Origin: Actinomycetes bacterium
Lineage (GTDB): Bacteria > Actinomycetota > Acidimicrobiia > Acidimicrobiales > Poriferisodalaceae
Direction: 5' to 3'
DNA length: 64,000 nt
Assembly: GCA_024228575.1 (NCBI GenBank)
Contig: JAAETH010000618.1
Span: 1 to 64,000 of the forward strand
Shown here: positions 45,333-56,127 of the stretch, one piece after another
How positions within the stretch are numbered: the first letter of the stretch is position 1
How the letters are laid out: each line of letters starts with the position of its first letter
Made by a program: the position numbers and the translations under genes
Notes under the pieces: model-generated
Told to the model about the DNA's origin: nothing
Seen by the model: only the letters and a program-made list of their open reading frames with translations
The model's database searches: none

Positions 45333-45779
45333 ATGGCGACGGTTGAGCGAGTCAGGATCCTCACAGCGCCCTCCGAGCAGGTTTGGAGTGTGCTGGCCGA
45401 CTTCGGGCAGATTGCGGAATGGGCCGGCAATGTCGACCATTCGGTAGTGCTCACCCCCACGGGTGGGGGTGAAGGAGCGGCCCGGCGCGTGCAGGTGGGG
45501 CGCCTCGCCCTGATCGAAACGATCGTCGGCTGGGATCCACCGCGACGGCTTGCCTATTCGATAGCCGGGTTGCCACCTCGTCTGGGCGAGGTCGTCAACG
45601 AGTGGACCCTCGAAGCCATGGGCGAACAGACTCGTGTCATCCTCGCAACATCGGTCGATCCGGGCCCGCGACCACCTCAACAGGGAGTGGGAAGGCTTGT
45701 CGCCGGCCGTATGGCCAAGGCATCGGACAAGATGCTCGACGGCCTCGCCTCTCACCTGACCACAGGAAGTTCGACATGA
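45333..45779 (+). CDS. SRPBCC (START/Bet v1-fold) family protein
   Basis: A 148-residue lipid- or ligand-binding fold: TVERVRILTAPSEQVWSVLADFGQIAEW is the standard opening, then VGWDPPRRLAYSI and NEWTLEAMGEQTRVI. These proteins bind hydrophobic ligands or help polyketide-like chemistry. The ATG was chosen at the conserved opening; the frame above is unrelated. Its stop overlaps the start of the sulfatase/DJ-1 gene (ATGA), so the two are co-translated. Confidence 0.82.
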   Translation: MATVERVRILTAPSEQVWSVLADFGQIAEWAGNVDHSVVLTPTGGGEGAARRVQVGRLALIETIVGWDPPRRLAYSIAGLPPRLGEVVNEWTLEAMGEQTRVILATSVDPGPRPPQQGVGRLVAGRMAKASDKMLDGLASHLTTGSST

Positions 45780-48355
45780 CCAGGCCCGACATCGTCATCG
45801 TCATGACCGACCAGGAGCGTGCGACTCCTCCCTACGAGGGCGACGAGGTGGCTCGCTGGCGCTCCGAGGCACTTGCGGCGCGGCGCTGGTTTGGCGAGAA
45901 CGGGGTGACGTTCGATCGGCACCACGTGGGATCACTCGCCTGCGTGCCAGGGCGCCCGACGTTGTTCACAGGCCACTACCCCGACGTACACGGGGTCACC
46001 CAGACCGATGGCCTGGGCAAGTTCTTCGACGACTCGCGCATGCGCTGGTTGCGCGAGGGCGAGGTCCCGACCATGGGCAACTGGTTCCGAGCCGGCGGCT
46101 ACGACACCCACTACGACGGCAAGTGGCACATGTCCCATGTCGATCTGATCGATCCCGAAACGGGCGAGTCCCTCGCTACCAACGACGACGACGGCACCAT
46201 CGACTCGGCGGCCGTCGACGCGTACCTCGACGCGGACCCATTGGCGCCGTACGGATTCTCGGGTTGGGTCGGACCCGAGCCCCACGGAGCAGCGATCGCC
46301 AACGCCGGGATTCGACGCGATCCCCTGATCGCCGATCGCGTCGTCGCGTGGCTCGAGGACCGCTATGCCAGGCGTGCTGCGGGCGATGCCGCGGCACAGA
46401 AGCCATTCCTGTTGGTGGCCTGTTTCGTCAACCCCCACGACATCGTGTTCTTCCCCGGCTGGGCAAGGCGGGGCGCACCTCTCGACGAGGAGGCCTTCGA
46501 TGTGCCCGCCATCGCTGAGTCGCCGACCGAACACGAGGATCTGCGCACCAAGCCGGCGGCGCAGGTCGCCTATCGCTCCTCCTATCCGACCACCTACGGA
46601 CCGGGCCCGTTGGTCGAGCGCGCCTACCGCACCCAAGCTGATCGTTACAGGCGTTTGTACTACCGGCTGATGGCAGAGGTCGACGAACCGATCGATCGGG
46701 TTCGGCGAGCGGTCACCGACCAGGAAGATGCCCAGACCGTGATGGTCTACACGGCCGACCATGGCGAACTTCTCGGCTCGCACGGCGGGCTGCACCAGAA
46801 GTGGTTCAACCTCTACGACGAGGCCTGCCGGGTGCCGTTTGTGGTCGCACGGGTCGGCGAAGCGGCGACAGCGGCTACGACCGTCGACGACATGGCGACC
46901 TCACACGTCGATCTGCTGCCCACCCTCCTGGCTGCGGCGGGGATCGACCAGGCGGCGGTTGCCGACGAGTTGAGGCAATCGTTCAGCGAAGTTCATCCGC
47001 TTCCCGGACGAGATCTGATGCCGGTGGTCGCGGATGCGGCTGCTGCAGATGTCGACCGAGCGGTCTACATGCAGACACGCGACAACATGCCAGAGGGCGA
47101 CAGCGGCGCTTCGGGCCTCGCACGCATGATGGGTCGCGCTGAGAAGGTGCCGGTGCCCCTGCGAATCCAGGTCCCCGCCCACGTTGGCGCAAACCTCGAA
47201 GCGGTCGTGGCGAGGGTCGGCGAGACCGATGGGGGCGCCAACCACCTGTGGAAGATCGTGCGCACGTTCGACGATCCGGCCACCTGGACCGAACCAAACG
47301 AGCGCCACCTGTCCGCGATGAACCCCACGGGCCCCATGTATCGGACCGAACCCATTGCCGACGAGTGGGAGCTGTACGACCTGATCGACGATCCCATCGA
47401 GGCGAAGAACCTGGCCGGGTCGGCAGCGGCGAGTTCGGTATTCGCGGCGATGAAGCGTCGCCTCGACGAGACCCGGACCGTGGTTGTCCCCGAACGCAAC
47501 GAACCCTGGCCATACGAGAAGCTGAAGCCCTCGGTGGCACCAAGGAAGACCGCACCGCCCCCTGCGCGCGCTCTGCGCAAGCTCCTGAGCAAGATCGGCA
47601 TGCATCCCGACGATGCCGATGTCGCCACTTTCCATCTCGCCGGGAGAAGAGCACTCGTGGTTGCCACGAACCACGGCACCCTCGATATCGGCAAGGCCAC
47701 CGGGGTGTTCGCAAGCGAGATGACAGTGCCGTACTACGCCTTCCTCGACGCTGGAATGGAGGTCGATGTGGCGAGCCCCCTCGGAGGTGTTGTCCCGGTC
47801 GATCCTCAGTCGCTCAAGCCGGTCATTCGCACCGATGAGGACGACCGGTTCCTGGCCGACGACGAGCTGCGCGACAAGGTTATGGATTCGTATGCGATCG
47901 GCGATCTCGACATGGACGACTACGACATCGTCTGTCTCGCCGGAGGGTGGGGCGCCGCGTTCGACTTCGGATTCTCACAGGATCTCGCCGACAAGATCAC
48001 CGAGGCCAACGTGTCCGACAAGATCATCGGAGGTGTGTGTCACGGCCCGCTCGGCCTTCGAAATGCCAAGGCCAAGGACGGTCGACCACTGGTCGAAGGC
48101 CGCCGAGTGACCGGCGTCAGCGACAAGCAGGTCAGCGAGCTCGGCATCGAATCGACCCCGCACCACCCCGAAACCGAGTTGAGGCGCATGGGTGGGCTGT
48201 ACGAGTCCGAGACCAAGTTCCGAGACCCATTCGCAAACCACTGGGTCGTCGACGGCAACCTCGTCACCGGACAGAATCAGAACGCCGCACCGATGGTGGC
48301 GAGGGAGATGATGAGAATCTTGACCCGGCAGCTCGAAGCGGCGAACCAGGCTTGA
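45776..48355 (+). CDS. Sulfatase fused to C-terminal DJ-1/PfpI domain
   Basis: An 859-residue two-domain protein. Residues 1-590 are a type I sulfatase: the formylglycine motif is Cys56-Val-Pro58-Gly-Arg60 (CxPxR) followed by PTLFTGHYP, metal ligands are in MVYTADHGELLGSHG (Asp328, His329), and KWHMS and HQKWFNLYDEACRVPF are conserved. A Pro-rich linker follows at 590-610. Residues 620-859 are a DJ-1/PfpI fold with the nucleophile Cys755 in GGVCHGPLG. No signal peptide, so cytoplasmic. It is in an overlap with the SRPBCC gene and 55 bases before the TauE/SafE gene. CxPxR predicts oxygen-dependent activation by FGE. Confidence 0.85.
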   Translation: MTRPDIVIVMTDQERATPPYEGDEVARWRSEALAARRWFGENGVTFDRHHVGSLACVPGRPTLFTGHYPDVHGVTQTDGLGKFFDDSRMRWLREGEVPTMGNWFRAGGYDTHYDGKWHMSHVDLIDPETGESLATNDDDGTIDSAAVDAYLDADPLAPYGFSGWVGPEPHGAAIANAGIRRDPLIADRVVAWLEDRYARRAAGDAAAQKPFLLVACFVNPHDIVFFPGWARRGAPLDEEAFDVPAIAESPTEHEDLRTKPAAQVAYRSSYPTTYGPGPLVERAYRTQADRYRRLYYRLMAEVDEPIDRVRRAVTDQEDAQTVMVYTADHGELLGSHGGLHQKWFNLYDEACRVPFVVARVGEAATAATTVDDMATSHVDLLPTLLAAAGIDQAAVADELRQSFSEVHPLPGRDLMPVVADAAAADVDRAVYMQTRDNMPEGDSGASGLARMMGRAEKVPVPLRIQVPAHVGANLEAVVARVGETDGGANHLWKIVRTFDDPATWTEPNERHLSAMNPTGPMYRTEPIADEWELYDLIDDPIEAKNLAGSAAASSVFAAMKRRLDETRTVVVPERNEPWPYEKLKPSVAPRKTAPPPARALRKLLSKIGMHPDDADVATFHLAGRRALVVATNHGTLDIGKATGVFASEMTVPYYAFLDAGMEVDVASPLGGVVPVDPQSLKPVIRTDEDDRFLADDELRDKVMDSYAIGDLDMDDYDIVCLAGGWGAAFDFGFSQDLADKITEANVSDKIIGGVCHGPLGLRNAKAKDGRPLVEGRRVTGVSDKQVSELGIESTPHHPETELRRMGGLYESETKFRDPFANHWVVDGNLVTGQNQNAAPMVAREMMRILTRQLEAANQA

Positions 48356-49356: not shown

Positions 49357-52300
49357 ATGGTTGTGGCGGTGATCGATACCGATCTACAAGCTGGGCTCGC
49401 CGCGGAGATGGCGAGGGTCCTCGGGATCGATTCGGTGCCGCCGGAGAGCAACTTCTTCGAGGATCTCGGAGCCGATTCGATGCTGTTGATGCAGTTCTGC
49501 GCGCGGCTGGGGAAACGAACCGACCTTCCGTCACCGTCGATCAGGGACGTGTATCAGAATCCGACGATCAGCAGCTTGGCCAAGGCATTTGGGGCGGTGG
49601 AATCGCCCCCCGACGTCGATTCCCCTGCTGTCGAGGATGTGGGAGCAGGTGATCTCGGGCCGGCGATGTGGTCGCACAAGCGTTTGCCAGCTCCGCGGGC
49701 AAACCGTCGGCAGTATGTGACCTGTGCGCTGCTTCAGCTCGCGTTCATGGCGGCGGGCACATTGCTCGCTGCGCTCGTTCTCTCCCGGGGCTTCGTCTGG
49801 ATCTCTGAAGCCTCGGGAATCGTCGATACCTATCTGAGAGCGGCTGTTTACGGCGCCGTCCTGTTCGTGGCGTTGTCGGTGTTTCCGATTCTGGTCAAAT
49901 GGGCGTTGGTCGGTCGGTCGAAGCCGGGCCAGGTGCCACTGTGGAGTCTCGGCTATGTCCGATTCTGGGTCGTCAGATCGATTGTGGGGTCGAGCCCCAT
50001 GCGGGTGTTTGCGGGTACCCCTCTGTACGTGCTGTATCTGAAGACCCTCGGGGCCCGGATCGGACGCGGCACGGTGATCCTCTCGACCCACGTGCCGGTG
50101 TGCGCCGACCTTCTCACCATCGGAGAGAACGTGGTGATCAGGAAGGACTCGGCGTTCAGCTGCTACCGGGCATTCGCCGGCTACATCCAGATGGGCACCG
50201 TACACATCGGGGACAACGCTTTCGTCGGCGAACAAACCGTGCTCGACATCGACACCTCTATCGAAGACAACGCCCAGGTCGGTCACGCATCCGCCCTGTA
50301 TCGAGGTCAGTCGGTTCCGGCAGGGCAGCGGCGTGTTGGTACCCCGGCCCTGCAGACCACCGATGTCGACTACATGGCGGTGGGAGCCGGCGGCCATCCT
50401 GGGCTTCGTAGGATCTCCTACTCGGCTCTGCAGACCACGGTGATGTTCCTGGTGAGCTCGCCGATCGCTATCAGCATCGCTACCGCGATCTTTGAATGGC
50501 GCGTGGTTGCGGCGCGTGTCGAGACTGCTCCCGCTCCGGGGACCCAAGGTTCCTTCTACGTCGGCGTATTGCTGCTCGCATTGGCACTGTTCGCCATCTC
50601 GACGGTGGTCAGGTTTGTGTTGGTGATGACCGTGCCGAGGTTGCTGAATCTCGCGATCCAGCCAGGAACGGCCTACCCCCTGTACGGCTTCCGGTATTGG
50701 TGTCACCGGGGAGTCGGCCGGTTCAGCAACGCCAAGTTCTTCACCAAACTGATGGGCGACTCCTCCTACATCGTTCACTACCTCCACCTGCTCGGATACG
50801 ACGTGTCGTTCGAGGAGCAGACCGGCGCCAACTTCGGCATGCACGTCAAACACGACAATCCCTTCGCCGTGTCTGTGGGCGCCGGGACGATGGCCGCAGA
50901 CGGGCTGTCGATCATCAACACCGAATACTCCAGTACGGCGTTCCGGGTGGACAGGGTCGCCATAGGAGCGCACTGCTTCATCGGCAACGAGGTCGTATAT
51001 CCCTCTCAAGGAACGACCAGCGAGAACTGTCTGCACGCCTCGAAGGTGATGGTGCCCATCGAGGGCGACGAGCGGGGAGACGTCGGCTATCTCGGCTCGC
51101 CGGCGTTCGAGATCCCCCGAGTGGTGTTCCGCGACAAACAGTTCGACGACCTCAAGGACGAGGAAACGCTGCCGCTTCTGCTGCGGGCCAAGAACCGGCA
51201 CAACCTCAAGACCATGGGTTGGTATCTGCTCTCGCGATTCGTCGCCTTGTTCGGAGCGGTGGCCATCGTGTTGGGAGGGGCCGACCTATACCCCGATCTG
51301 GGGATGTGGTCGTTTGCACTGGTGCCCGTCGGCGTCTTCGCGGCCGGCTCCGCCTACTCGGTGCTGCTCGAACGCTGGTCCATCGGATTCAGGCGGCTCG
51401 AGCCGATGTATTGCTCGATCTACGACAAGGAGTCCTGGAAGATCGAGCGCTATTGGAAGATGAGTTGGTATCCGACAGTCCTCAACGGCACGCCGTTCAA
51501 AGCCATGTTCTGGCGGATGCTGGGTGCGCGTGTGGGCCGGAGGCTCTACGACGACGGCGGCACCATGACCGAGAAGACCATGGTCACGATCGGTGATGAC
51601 TGTGTGTTGAACGCCGGCAGCCTCATCCAACCCCACTCGCAAGAGGATGGTTCGTTCAAGTCGGACCACATCCGAATCGGATCGGGCTGCACTGTGGGCG
51701 TTGCTGCCTTGGTCCACTACGGCGTGACGATGGGTGACGGATCGTCGCTTGCCCCGAACTCGTTTCTTATGAAGGGCGCGGAAGTGCCGGCCCACACCAA
51801 CTGGGGTGAGAACCCAGCGCGTGAACTCGTGAATCAGCACAGCGATCGAACTCTGCAGAGGAGAAACCTCGTGGACAAATCAACCGACGATGCCGAGGAG
51901 TTCTGGCGCAACATTCTGGGTGCGGGCGGACTCAACCCGGTACCCAGATGGGGCGCTGGAGCAGAAGCAGGAGTCGCCGGGAGCGGCTTGTTCTTGCCCG
52001 ACGGCCTCGCCGAGCGACTCCACGCTGCCACCGAGGCACTTCAGCTCTCGGCGACCTCGATCCTGCTGGGCGCTCACGCGAAGGTGCTTGCTGCGCTGAC
52101 AGGTGAACAGAGCGTCATGACCGGATATGTCCCGGCCGCCGACGTCGAGACCGGTCCGTTGCCCTGTCCGCTGGTCGTGTCGGGTGGCTCTTGGCGAACG
52201 GTCCTGGAGAACGCCGGCAGGGCAGAGACGATGCTGTTGGCGCGTCGTCGGTTTCCCGTCGCGGGGCTCTACCCGGAGTTCGGGCTCTCGAAACCTCCGT

Positions 52301-55300
52301 TTGAGACGATCCTCGACGCCGGCGAAGGCGAAGCGACGCTCGACGCCGACACGGTCTTCTCGGTTGCCGCGGTCGAACGCGATGGTCGCCCGGCGCTGGT
52401 GCTGCGCTACCGAACCGACCTACTGGACGAGGCCGCTTCGAAGCGGATCCTCGGGTATCACCTCACCGCGCTGGACCAAGCCACAGCCGATGTCGAAGCC
52501 GATCATGAGCGACAAAGCCTGTTGTCGGCAGCTGAACTCGACTTCCAGGTCGAGGGGCTGGCGGGACCGCGTCGCGAGATTCCCGACGGCGGCTTCCACG
52601 AACTGTTCGAACAGAGGGTTCGTCGACACCCCGACTCGGTGGCAGCGGTTCAGGACGAGAGGTGTTGGACGTATCGCGAGCTGAACGCCAGAGCGAACCG
52701 GCTCGGTCGTGCCCTCCTTGCCAGGGGCCTCGAGCGAGAGGGGGTTGTGGCTGTTGTAACCGAGCGAAACCTCGATTGGATGGCGGCGGTATTGGCCGTC
52801 TTCAAAGCCGGAGGTGTCTACCTTCCGATCGAGCCCCACTTCCCTGCCGATCGCGTCACCGCGACCCTGGCCCGTGCCGGGTGTCGGATCGCCATCACCG
52901 AACACACCAGCGACGAGAGCCTCAAGAGCGCTGTCGACACCATTGGCGACATCGACGTCATGTATGTCGGCGACGTCTGGAACGCCTCCCACCCGGATCG
53001 GAATCTGGGCCTCGCGGTCGCTCCCGATCAGCTCGCATACATCTATTTCACATCGGGATCTACCGGGGAGCCCAAGGGTGCGATGTGTGAGCACGCCGGC
53101 TTTCTCAACCATCTCTACGCGAAGATCGACGACTTCGAGATGGTCGAAGGAGAAGTTGTCGCCCAGATAGCTCCGCAGTGTTTCGACATCTCGCTGTGGC
53201 AGCTCGTGTCCGCTCTGCTGGTGGGCGGTACGACGGTCGTCGTCGAGCAGGAGACCCTTCTCGACCCTGGACGTTTCATCGCCACGATCGTCGACGAGAG
53301 GGTCGGTGTCATGCAGGTGGTGCCGTCATATCTCGAGGTCCTGCTCTCGTATCTCGAGCAGAACCCACGCGACCTCGTCGATCTGCATTGTGTCTCGGCC
53401 ACCGGTGAAGCCCTGAAGCCCGACTTGGTACACCGTTGGTTCGCAGCTCAGCCACACATCAAGCTCGCCAATGCCTACGGGCTCACCGAAACCTCCGATG
53501 ACACCAACCACGAGGTCATGACCAAACCGCCGAGCGACGGCACGGTTCCACTCGGTCGATCGGTGAACAACGCCTACGTTTATGTGGTCGACGAGAACCT
53601 GCTCCCAGTTCCGCTCGGTGCGCCAGGCGAGATCGTGTTCTCAGGTGTTTGTGTGGGGCGCGGGTACATCAATGATCCGGAACGCACGGCTCTCGCCTAT
53701 CTCGACGATCCCCTCCGACCGGGAGAGCGGCTCTACCGAAGCGGCGACTTCGGTCGCTGGCGACCCGACGGCAAACTCGAATATCTCGGCCGTCGAGATG
53801 CCCAGGTCAAGATCCGCGGTTTCCGCATCGAGATCGGCGAGATCGAGAATTCGATGCGCCGAATCGACGGGGTCCGCGAGGGAGCGGTCGTCCTGAGCGA
53901 ACGTCCCGATGGAAACAAGCAGCTCGTGGCGTTCTACTCGGGTGAGGAGTACGACAGGGACCAGCTGAAGGGGCGGATGGGACAAGTGCTCCCCGACTAC
54001 ATGGTTCCCTCCGTGATCGAGCGGTGCGAACGTCTACCACTGACCGCAAACGGTAAGGTCGATCGCAAGATGCTGACCGCTCTGGCCGGCGGACTCTTCG
54101 ATGAGAGAGGCGAGATCGAATCCCCGATCACCCCCGCCGAGATCCGAATCGCAGCAGCTTGGGCCAAGGCCCTGAACCTTCCGACCGACCAGATCGGTCG
54201 AGGCGACGACTTCTTCGACCGAGGTGGCACCTCGTTGTCGGCTGTCGAACTGGTGATCGAGCTCGGGGACGACATGTCGCTCAAGGATGTCACCCGGCAT
54301 CCGGTCCTGTCCGACATGGCGCTTCTCGCCGGCGGCGAGAAGAAGTCGAGCGCCGGCCTTCTCCAGCAACTGTCCAACCACAACGATGTGGGTGCGGGGA
54401 TGTTGGTCTGTTTCCCGCACGCGGGCGGCAACGCGATCAACGCCCACGCGATGGCTCGAGCGCTGAGCGACAACCCCATGGCGGTATACGCCGTCGAACT
54501 GCCCGGCCACGACCCAACGATCGGCGGGGAACCATTTGCGCCGCTGCCCGACATTGTCGAGCGGGTTGTGGCAGAGGTCGTCGAACTCGCACCAACCTCG
54601 GTGGCGATCTGGGGGCACTCGTCGGGAACGGCGTTTGCCGTCGACACGGCTAGAACCCTCGAGGCTCGAGGCGTGTCGGTGAGCAAGGTCTTTCTGGCCG
54701 CCCAGCTCCCCGGTGATCTCGCGGGTCGGCAAGCCCATGTGGCGAAGTTGCGCGGACAGAGCGACACCGAGATCGCCCAGCATCTGATGTCGGACCGCTC
54801 CGACTTCGAGATCGCCGACCTCGATGCCTCACACACGGAGCAGATCGGAGCGGCCTACCGTCACGATTGCCTGGCGGCCCACGAGTTCTTCATCGCGGCG
54901 GCCAAGTCGCCGCCGGCGAGATACCTCTCTGCACCGGTCGTGGCAATCGTGGCCGATGATGATCCAGCCACGGACGGCTGGCGCGAGCGATATCTGGAGT
55001 GGCGCATGTTGGTCGACAACATCGAGGTTGTTGCGCTCAGCGACGGGGGTCATTTCCTACTGCGTACCCGCCCCGAAGAGGTAGCTGCTGTTGTGGAGCG
55101 AGCCCTCGCCGGCCAAACCATTGTTTCCGAGCCGTCGACCGGACCGGTTCGTCTGTCTCCCGGGGCGACGGCATCTCACCTCGAGATTGTCGAGCAGCCG
55201 AACAGACCACCGATGGTGCTGGCCGAAGGGGTGGGCGACCCATTGCTGTGGGTCGCTGCGAATCGCGACGATCTGAGGGGAGCTGTCCTCGAACATGGTT

Positions 55301-56127
55301 CCTTGGCCGTTCGTGGGCTGGGTCTGGGGGCGAAGGATCTGGCGATCGATGTCGTGACGGCTCTGGCCGATCAGATGGCTGTCGACCGCGAGGCGTTCGC
55401 TGGGCGAGACCGCTATCGCGATGGCATCTACTCGTCGTCGAACTGGCCTGCGACACAACAGATGTGTATGCACCACGAACTCAGCTACAGAGTCGAGGTG
55501 CCGGGCATGATGATGTTTGTCTGCCTCGCTCCCTCGACCACCGGTGGCTCGATACCCCTCGCCAGTGCTGCGGCGATGCTCTCGAAGCTGCCGACGGAGG
55601 TGGTCGATCGATTCGACCGGGAGGGCTGGATGCTCACTCGCAGTTTCACCGACGAGATCGGCTTGTCGGCTCAGGAGGCGTTTGGGATCGAGGAGCGGTC
55701 CGGGATCGACAGCTATTGCATGGCCAACAGCATCGAGTTCGAATGGCAGCCCGACGGAGGTCTGCTGACCAGGCAGTGCAGGCCAGCCGTCGTGAACCAT
55801 CCGATTACGAGGCAACGCTGCTGGTTCAACCAGATCGCCTTCTTGAGCGAGTGGACCATGAAGAAGGAAGTCCGCGAGTTCATGATCGACGTGTACGGCG
55901 AGGACGGCCTTCCGTTCAACACGAGATTCGGCAACGGCGATCCGATCGGAGAGGACGTCGTCAAGGCCATCAACGACGCCTACGACGCGATCACTGTCGA
56001 GGAACCGATGCAGGCCGGCGACCTCTTGTTGGTCGACAACATCGGGACGGCTCACAGCCGAGAGCCTTATGAGGGTGGGCGCGATGTGCTTGTGGCCATG
56101 ACCGATCCGGTTCGACTGGTGTTGTAG
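49357..56127 (+). CDS. Membrane-embedded NRPS: carrier - Pls-like module - half C - A - carrier - TE - TauD oxygenase
   Basis: A 2256-residue multidomain protein. Residues 1-85: carrier domain with phosphopantetheine Ser41 (FEDLGADSML). 120-183: two membrane helices. 228-318: left-handed beta-helix domain 1. 360-426: helix pair. 441-570: beta-helix 2. 621-674: helix pair. 714-824: beta-helix 3. This six-helix, three-domain block matches the epsilon-poly-lysine synthetase C-terminal module. 844-1048: half of a condensation domain, without HHxxxDG. 1077-1578: adenylation (YIYFTSGSTGEPKG, NAYGLTET, YRSGDFGRW, LTANGKVDRK). Carrier 2: Ser1626. Thioesterase: Ser1755 (GHSSG), His1899. 1925-2256: TauD/TfdA-type Fe/2-oxoglutarate domain (HHELSY, GTAHSREPYEGGRD). 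By hand alignment the specificity residues read D-I-W-Q-S-T-A-D-D-K; I cannot name the amino acid. No PPTase is adjacent. Confidence 0.85.
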   Translation: MVVAVIDTDLQAGLAAEMARVLGIDSVPPESNFFEDLGADSMLLMQFCARLGKRTDLPSPSIRDVYQNPTISSLAKAFGAVESPPDVDSPAVEDVGAGDLGPAMWSHKRLPAPRANRRQYVTCALLQLAFMAAGTLLAALVLSRGFVWISEASGIVDTYLRAAVYGAVLFVALSVFPILVKWALVGRSKPGQVPLWSLGYVRFWVVRSIVGSSPMRVFAGTPLYVLYLKTLGARIGRGTVILSTHVPVCADLLTIGENVVIRKDSAFSCYRAFAGYIQMGTVHIGDNAFVGEQTVLDIDTSIEDNAQVGHASALYRGQSVPAGQRRVGTPALQTTDVDYMAVGAGGHPGLRRISYSALQTTVMFLVSSPIAISIATAIFEWRVVAARVETAPAPGTQGSFYVGVLLLALALFAISTVVRFVLVMTVPRLLNLAIQPGTAYPLYGFRYWCHRGVGRFSNAKFFTKLMGDSSYIVHYLHLLGYDVSFEEQTGANFGMHVKHDNPFAVSVGAGTMAADGLSIINTEYSSTAFRVDRVAIGAHCFIGNEVVYPSQGTTSENCLHASKVMVPIEGDERGDVGYLGSPAFEIPRVVFRDKQFDDLKDEETLPLLLRAKNRHNLKTMGWYLLSRFVALFGAVAIVLGGADLYPDLGMWSFALVPVGVFAAGSAYSVLLERWSIGFRRLEPMYCSIYDKESWKIERYWKMSWYPTVLNGTPFKAMFWRMLGARVGRRLYDDGGTMTEKTMVTIGDDCVLNAGSLIQPHSQEDGSFKSDHIRIGSGCTVGVAALVHYGVTMGDGSSLAPNSFLMKGAEVPAHTNWGENPARELVNQHSDRTLQRRNLVDKSTDDAEEFWRNILGAGGLNPVPRWGAGAEAGVAGSGLFLPDGLAERLHAATEALQLSATSILLGAHAKVLAALTGEQSVMTGYVPAADVETGPLPCPLVVSGGSWRTVLENAGRAETMLLARRRFPVAGLYPEFGLSKPPFETILDAGEGEATLDADTVFSVAAVERDGRPALVLRYRTDLLDEAASKRILGYHLTALDQATADVEADHERQSLLSAAELDFQVEGLAGPRREIPDGGFHELFEQRVRRHPDSVAAVQDERCWTYRELNARANRLGRALLARGLEREGVVAVVTERNLDWMAAVLAVFKAGGVYLPIEPHFPADRVTATLARAGCRIAITEHTSDESLKSAVDTIGDIDVMYVGDVWNASHPDRNLGLAVAPDQLAYIYFTSGSTGEPKGAMCEHAGFLNHLYAKIDDFEMVEGEVVAQIAPQCFDISLWQLVSALLVGGTTVVVEQETLLDPGRFIATIVDERVGVMQVVPSYLEVLLSYLEQNPRDLVDLHCVSATGEALKPDLVHRWFAAQPHIKLANAYGLTETSDDTNHEVMTKPPSDGTVPLGRSVNNAYVYVVDENLLPVPLGAPGEIVFSGVCVGRGYINDPERTALAYLDDPLRPGERLYRSGDFGRWRPDGKLEYLGRRDAQVKIRGFRIEIGEIENSMRRIDGVREGAVVLSERPDGNKQLVAFYSGEEYDRDQLKGRMGQVLPDYMVPSVIERCERLPLTANGKVDRKMLTALAGGLFDERGEIESPITPAEIRIAAAWAKALNLPTDQIGRGDDFFDRGGTSLSAVELVIELGDDMSLKDVTRHPVLSDMALLAGGEKKSSAGLLQQLSNHNDVGAGMLVCFPHAGGNAINAHAMARALSDNPMAVYAVELPGHDPTIGGEPFAPLPDIVERVVAEVVELAPTSVAIWGHSSGTAFAVDTARTLEARGVSVSKVFLAAQLPGDLAGRQAHVAKLRGQSDTEIAQHLMSDRSDFEIADLDASHTEQIGAAYRHDCLAAHEFFIAAAKSPPARYLSAPVVAIVADDDPATDGWRERYLEWRMLVDNIEVVALSDGGHFLLRTRPEEVAAVVERALAGQTIVSEPSTGPVRLSPGATASHLEIVEQPNRPPMVLAEGVGDPLLWVAANRDDLRGAVLEHGSLAVRGLGLGAKDLAIDVVTALADQMAVDREAFAGRDRYRDGIYSSSNWPATQQMCMHHELSYRVEVPGMMMFVCLAPSTTGGSIPLASAAAMLSKLPTEVVDRFDREGWMLTRSFTDEIGLSAQEAFGIEERSGIDSYCMANSIEFEWQPDGGLLTRQCRPAVVNHPITRQRCWFNQIAFLSEWTMKKEVREFMIDVYGEDGLPFNTRFGNGDPIGEDVVKAINDAYDAITVEEPMQAGDLLLVDNIGTAHSREPYEGGRDVLVAMTDPVRLVL

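Follow-up and report, generated by a model that had tools for sequence, protein, structure and literature searches.

A single-chain form of an actinobacterial operon whose probable product is an oxidised derivative of 2,3-diaminopropionic acid, made by membrane-bound "poly-lysine" machinery

The window analysed here is a 64,000-nucleotide stretch of a metagenomic contig (JAAETH010000618.1) from an acidimicrobial actinobacterium. It holds a single open frame of 2267 codons with zero internal stops, which was also recovered in the genome search; an in-frame ATG at 49357, codon 12, is a possible alternative start. An earlier note on this DNA had described two carriers, a thioesterase and a TauD-like oxygenase in one chain. 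Pfam and NCBIfam profiles bear this out, giving the order carrier (PCP1), Pls/PosA module, tail of a condensation (C) domain, adenylation (A) domain, second carrier (PCP2), thioesterase (TE) and TauD (Table 1). Because these domains are kept across homologues, mostly at about 43–73% identity, a chance frame is ruled out, and we regard the observed fused chain as confirmed to be genuine. The earlier note knew of no described protein with this order, and none was found in the open-access literature that we searched. Upstream of the synthetase, an 859-aa frame (45776–48352) combines sulfatase and DJ-1/PfpI domains.

Table 1. Features of the fused synthetase, in window coordinates.
Feature	Position	Strand	Evidence
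Whole fused synthetase, 2267 aa	49324..56127	+	Open frame
PCP1 (aa 25–88), phosphopantetheine serine S52 in GADS	49396..49587	+	PF00550, motif position
Pls/PosA membrane module (aa 134–832), candidate catalytic H771/E774/D775/K779	49723..51819	+	TIGR02353, hydropathy, canonical-Pls alignment, AF2, Foldseek
Half condensation domain, C-terminal lobe only (about aa 860–1088)	51901..52587	+	PF00668 fragment, 8jbr alignment, AF2
Adenylation domain (aa 1095–1580), code DIWQSTADDK	52606..54063	+	PF00501/PF13193
PCP2 (about aa 1602–1670), serine S1637 in GGTS	54127..54333	+	Second PF00550 stretch; boundaries read off sequence
Type I thioesterase (aa 1694–1926), S1766, H1910, acidic pair D1879/D1880	54403..55101	+	PF00975
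TauD/TfdA Fe(II)/2-oxoglutarate dioxygenase (aa 1976–2258), H2050-x-E2052, H2244, R2253	55249..56097	+	PF02668

The membrane module scores well above the profile cut-off for the Pls/PosA terminal membrane module (627.7 bits vs. 423.1), and the Pls type that had been proposed for it therefore stands. Hydropathy analysis revealed six hydrophobic segments in three pairs, all within this module; one further segment above threshold (residues 1289–1307) lies inside the A domain. An AlphaFold2 (AF2) model of the module, made with 52 sequences (pLDDT 80, pTM 0.84), contains three repeats, each comprising a helix pair and then a beta-strand-rich, beta-helix-like domain, which is the alternation predicted earlier. 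Foldseek matched hexapeptide acyltransferases to the beta-helix domains with partial overlap, and it found no solved structure related to the whole module. This picture agrees with the published model of PosA, in which three left-handed beta-helices with approximate three-fold symmetry are packed as in acyltransferases (PMC10522769). In the third beta-helix, H771, E774, D775 and K779 are invariant in all 81 members of the gene cassette described below, and H771 and D775 have equivalents in an alignment with two canonical Pls sequences and one type-II sequence; the C3 motif around these two residues is common to the window chain and canonical Pls/PosA. The region of the four residues is a candidate catalytic site of the module. 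In an unrooted tree of Pls modules, those of the cassette group with type-II members (L019, L126–L128), far from the canonical ones, and do not form one clade; the window clusters with the Acidimicrobiia loci L101, L018 and L064.

Does the chain also possess a conventional condensation domain? The Pfam match covers only the far C-terminal end of the profile (positions 392–451 of 456, E = 0.025), and HHxxxD(G/A) is absent from the entire 2267-aa chain. A half-C profile from seven loci aligns to residues 209–484 of the C-A-PCP structure of McyA (8jbr), and an AF2 model of half C plus A (pLDDT 81) has C-A modules as its top Foldseek matches. Judged by these comparisons, the segment corresponds to a C domain's second lobe: of the HHxxxDG motif and two lobes that mark NRPS condensation domains, the C-terminal lobe is all that is present. 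The absence of HHxxxDG had been noted before, together with the idea that ligation may depend on the membrane module. As the half C is unable to carry HHxxxDG chemistry, ligation probably does rest on that module.

The A domain comprises an AMP-binding match (residues 1095–1448, 1e-79) and an AMP-binding_C match (residues 1506–1578). Its code, DIWQSTADDK, occurs in 72 rows of the alignment including the window, and the variants DIWQSTTDDK and DIWQCTTDDK occur in 13 further rows and one row, respectively. We found neither a characterised A domain that has the exact code nor a close characterised match to it. The acidic pair at positions 8 and 9 would suit a diamino acid. Glu at position 3 is said to be conserved across all cationic homopoly-amino-acid synthetases, with Asp at position 1 (PMC10522769); in the window, position 3 is Trp.

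The TE (PF00975, 5.5e-16) has the GxSxG serine, Asp and His of type I NRPS thioesterases, and S1766, the acidic pair D1879/D1880 and H1910 are conserved in 48 of 48 members. The TauD domain (PF02668, 3.1e-32; 113 bits vs. 27) carries the HxD/E...H iron triad and distal Arg of the TauD/TfdA family, with all four residues listed in Table 1 invariant in 82 of 82 members; its closest solved structures are 1y0z and 9yut. Within the taxonomic order of the window organism the TauD gene is rare: of 397 genomes, three matched at E <= 1e-40, one of them at only 33% identity, and no other genome of the same family matched at that threshold.

Relatives of the synthetase in a phylum sample of 397 genomes are split into separate genes. 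A single-protein scan of genome contigs had yielded 67 pattern matches and no relative; the half-C alignment was used instead to scan a genome collection, and it confirmed 365 relatives. The best 80 of these 365, titled as actinobacteria except for one Acidobacteria MAG (L088), were combined with six loci from the genome search, giving 86 loci for analysis. Nearly all share one arrangement, with PCP-Pls, halfC-A-PCP(±TE) and TauD as neighbouring genes on one strand, and TauD is present in 81. The spacing is tight, with medians of 42 nt between the Pls stop and the half-C codon that is aligned first and of 63.5 nt between the following stop and the corresponding TauD codon. The operon is common: hundreds of bacteria carry it, and most of these are actinobacteria of the soil.

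The window protein is the full fusion of this conserved three-gene operon, and among the loci examined only the window has TauD inside the chain. In L101, its closest relative, the three genes are separate; in G077, of the same taxonomic order, PCP-Pls-halfC-A-PCP-TE forms a single frame of 1995 aa, and TauD follows directly after it. The earlier note had called the protein a permuted Pls. Because the unfused operon is common, permutation is rejected; the evidence favours a fusion that joined a Pls gene with a decayed A domain, a separate halfC-A-PCP(-TE) gene and the gene for TauD. Two other candidates for a Pls-halfC fusion were not counted: L096, where separate gene calls and spacing are unsupportive, and L024. 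The 7.7-kb contig of L024 bears two partial cassettes in tandem. Conserved neighbour families 5, 10, 11 and 14 proved to be antisense shadow ORFs and were discarded.

No published description of the operon was found in the open-access literature searched, and related plasmid genes are annotated generically (Pls/PosA-family NRPS; TauD/TfdA family dioxygenase). The Streptomyces coelicolor cluster SCO6431/6432 was considered as a possible known version, and the papers found gave no link. The operon is common in actinobacteria yet apparently undescribed.

How did a Pls module come to stand without an A domain of its own? Four Pseudonocardiales loci (L041, L044, L082 and L110, the last on a plasmid) retain an N-terminal A domain ahead of PCP-Pls, and in all four it has decayed: the A3 motif is broken, and A_sub with Lys517 is lost or unrecognisable. 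In L110, Pfam matches AMP-binding and gives no AMP-binding_C match. The code remnants DFECLSVVT (L082) and DFECLFVVT (L044) resemble the code of the A-PCP-Pls protein of L019, DFECLSAVTK, and keep the D-F-E start reported for PDAP/PDAB synthetases, which have Phe at position 2 and Glu at position 3 (PMC10522769); those of L041 (DCQCLSVVT) and L110 (DLERVSTVT) have drifted further. No second intact A domain occurs in the cassette. These four decayed domains suggest that the Pls module was deprived of its A domain and now depends on that of its neighbour. The simplest history that would accommodate these remnants runs from a poly-Dap/Dab-type A-PCP-Pls enzyme through decay of its A domain to dependence on a neighbouring Dap A domain and finally to fusion. 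Two of these loci also have tandem carriers before the Pls module, two in L082 and three in L110.

Together, the enzymes SbnA and SbnB make L-2,3-diaminopropionate (Dap). Recurrent gene families sit downstream of TauD, and their representatives exceed the NCBIfam cut-offs for SbnA (389.5 vs. 350) and SbnB (408 vs. 327). From the sequence alone, the earlier note could reveal neither how widespread the unfused operon is nor these neighbouring genes: within about 10 kb, SbnA is present in 74 of the 86 loci and SbnB in 76, and 73 loci have both. A second association comes from loci in which the A domain occurs in another setting. On a Streptomyces plasmid (L114:10567-18890), an NRPS of A, PCP and TE without Pls has the identical code and adjoins two genes, one for an SbnA-like PLP enzyme and the other for an ArgH-like lyase. 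The locus L109 (7781-24171), with the code DIWQATCDDK, is similar, and a kinase lies in both regions. These clusters may represent a second route to Dap. As two distinct Dap-type gene sets accompany the DIWQ code, we take Dap to be the likely substrate of the A domain. Ten loci, mostly of Pseudonocardiales, carry a threonine-synthase-like PLP enzyme with the cassette (e.g., L065:15669-16829).

Neither SbnA nor SbnB was found above cut-off in the window's own genome (a 97% complete MAG) or in that of G077, while the genome of L101 encodes both, away from its cassette. The best SbnA match in the window genome, a frame of 544 aa that precedes a cystathionine gamma-synthase-like gene, is read as a putative cystathionine beta-synthase. 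The Sbn genes may be missing from the MAG, or Dap may be made by another route.

We tentatively propose, at somewhat less than even confidence, that the chain is an NRPS that sits in the membrane and uses Dap, with the Pls module taking the place of the C domain and TauD oxidising an intermediate while it is bound to a carrier. The single A domain would activate L-2,3-diaminopropionate and load the adjacent PCP2, and would also load PCP1, a carrier without its own A domain. The Pls module is pictured as an intramolecular trimer, its hexapeptide-acyltransferase-like beta-helices being anchored by three TM hairpins. It would substitute for the missing C domain and form an amide bond, linking the aminoacyl groups to each other or one of them to a soluble amine. 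The half C would do no more than cap the A domain structurally. TauD would then hydroxylate or desaturate the intermediate, with Dap presumably the oxidised residue and still on its carrier, and the TE would release a short product. The conserved tight operon, the Sbn genes, the shared A code, the vestigial A domains and the invariant catalytic residues support this reading; the window and G077 genomes, with their missing SbnA and SbnB, the TE-less loci and the failure to find a characterised A domain with this exact code count against it. So does a chemical point: the hemiaminal formed by hydroxylation of the beta-carbon of Dap is unstable if the beta-nitrogen carries no acyl group. That the beta-helix module was recruited as a true condensation domain, and that it links two residues which sit on carriers and come from a single A domain, is a bolder idea that we consider doubtful.

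Parts of the proposed scheme have counterparts elsewhere. The dapdiamide system (DdaA-D) has SbnA/SbnB-type Dap genes, an A-PCP-TE protein and a 2-oxoglutarate oxygenase that acts on a carrier-bound Dap derivative; there, however, no Pls module is known, and ATP-grasp enzymes ligate. In the capreomycin/viomycin NRPS, as proposed here, one Dap A domain (CmnA-A1) serves an A-less carrier of another module, CmnI (PMC12400406), but that assembly line uses ordinary C domains and no Pls module.

The best-surviving alternative, which we judge rather unlikely, is that the chain is a polymer synthetase. The Pls module would iterate to poly- or branched poly-Dap, TauD would hydroxylate the units, and the TE would merely edit or terminate. 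Epsilon-poly-L-lysine synthetase Pls, PosA and poly-Dap synthetase resemble the chain in having a PCP followed by the TIGR02353 module, six TM segments and three left-handed beta-helix domains, and the characterised relatives of this module in the literature consulted make homopolymers (PMC4668381, PMC10522769); ligation in the window chain may be similar to theirs. A branched Dap-Dap polymer, poly[beta-(L-Dap-L-Dap)], has been reported, and the vestigial A code belongs to the PDAP/PDAB kind. The TE, whose presence is clustered on the A-domain tree, is found in 47 of the 86 loci and missing in 39, which also speaks for this alternative; for the same reason, release by the TE cannot be essential. 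However, the polymer synthetases are A-PCP-Pls with nothing else, lacking C, TE and oxygenase, whereas the window chain has no N-terminal A domain and adds another A domain, PCP2, TE and TauD after Pls. Two carriers, a TE in about half of the loci and an oxygenase in nearly all are foreign to such enzymes, and Trp replaces their Glu at code position 3. On the grounds of domain order and A code, we did not file the chain as a poly-amino-acid synthetase. In some Streptomyces genomes two cassettes occur together, a TE being present in one and absent from the other (L036/L104, L039/L079, L051/L066), suggesting two functional types.

It is also possible, although less probable again, that the A domain of the NRPS activates a different residue and that Dap from SbnA/SbnB is only a soluble acceptor for the Pls module. 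The lack of a close characterised match to the code would permit this, as would the window genome, which keeps the code without SbnA/SbnB. Against it, the code co-occurs both with SbnA/SbnB and, in L114 and nearly identically in L109, with the SbnA-like and ArgH-like pair, and its acidic pair would fit a diamino acid.

A monobactam-like route, with the TE closing a beta-lactam on Dap and TauD oxidising the ring, is very improbable. The sulfazecin NRPS SulI/SulM shares a parts list with the cassette: the Dap genes SulG and SulH, a terminal Dap module with the TE of SulM, and the non-haem iron oxygenase SulO (PMC11298585). The SulM TE nucleophile, though, is Cys, whereas that of the cassette is Ser in 48 of 48; sulfazecin has a sulfotransferase, which was not identified among the recurrent neighbour families, and no Pls membrane module; and the TE is absent from 39 of the 86 loci. 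Equally improbable is that separate genes were joined by an error of metagenome assembly: the window comes from a single MAG contig and its nearest relative has the genes apart, but two stop-start boundaries would have to be removed in frame, and G077 has most of the same fusion.

We return to the favoured reading of a Dap-using NRPS. In the literature found, the Pls module has been known only as a self-contained maker of polymers. Here it apparently lacks an A domain of its own, with decayed intermediates visible, and is partnered with an NRPS module and an oxygenase. This suggests that a family of Dap natural products awaits characterisation, and the single-chain version allows the function of the Pls module to be tested apart from polymerisation. 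If the bolder idea of a recruited condensation domain is true, it would amount to a second, structurally unrelated way of making peptide bonds from carrier to carrier, one present in hundreds of bacteria and, in the window, fused with its oxygenase in one chain.

Two further arrangements of Pls genes were observed. PCP-Pls genes on Streptomyces and Arthrobacter plasmids (L111, L112 and L113) have no annotated halfC-A partner within about 12–15 kb, and two of the three are close to SulP/carbonic anhydrase and other ion-transport genes. On a plasmid of Skermanella mucosa (L127), an A-PCP-Pls gene directly follows ectB, which encodes diaminobutyrate transaminase, an arrangement that suggests a diaminobutyrate polymer.
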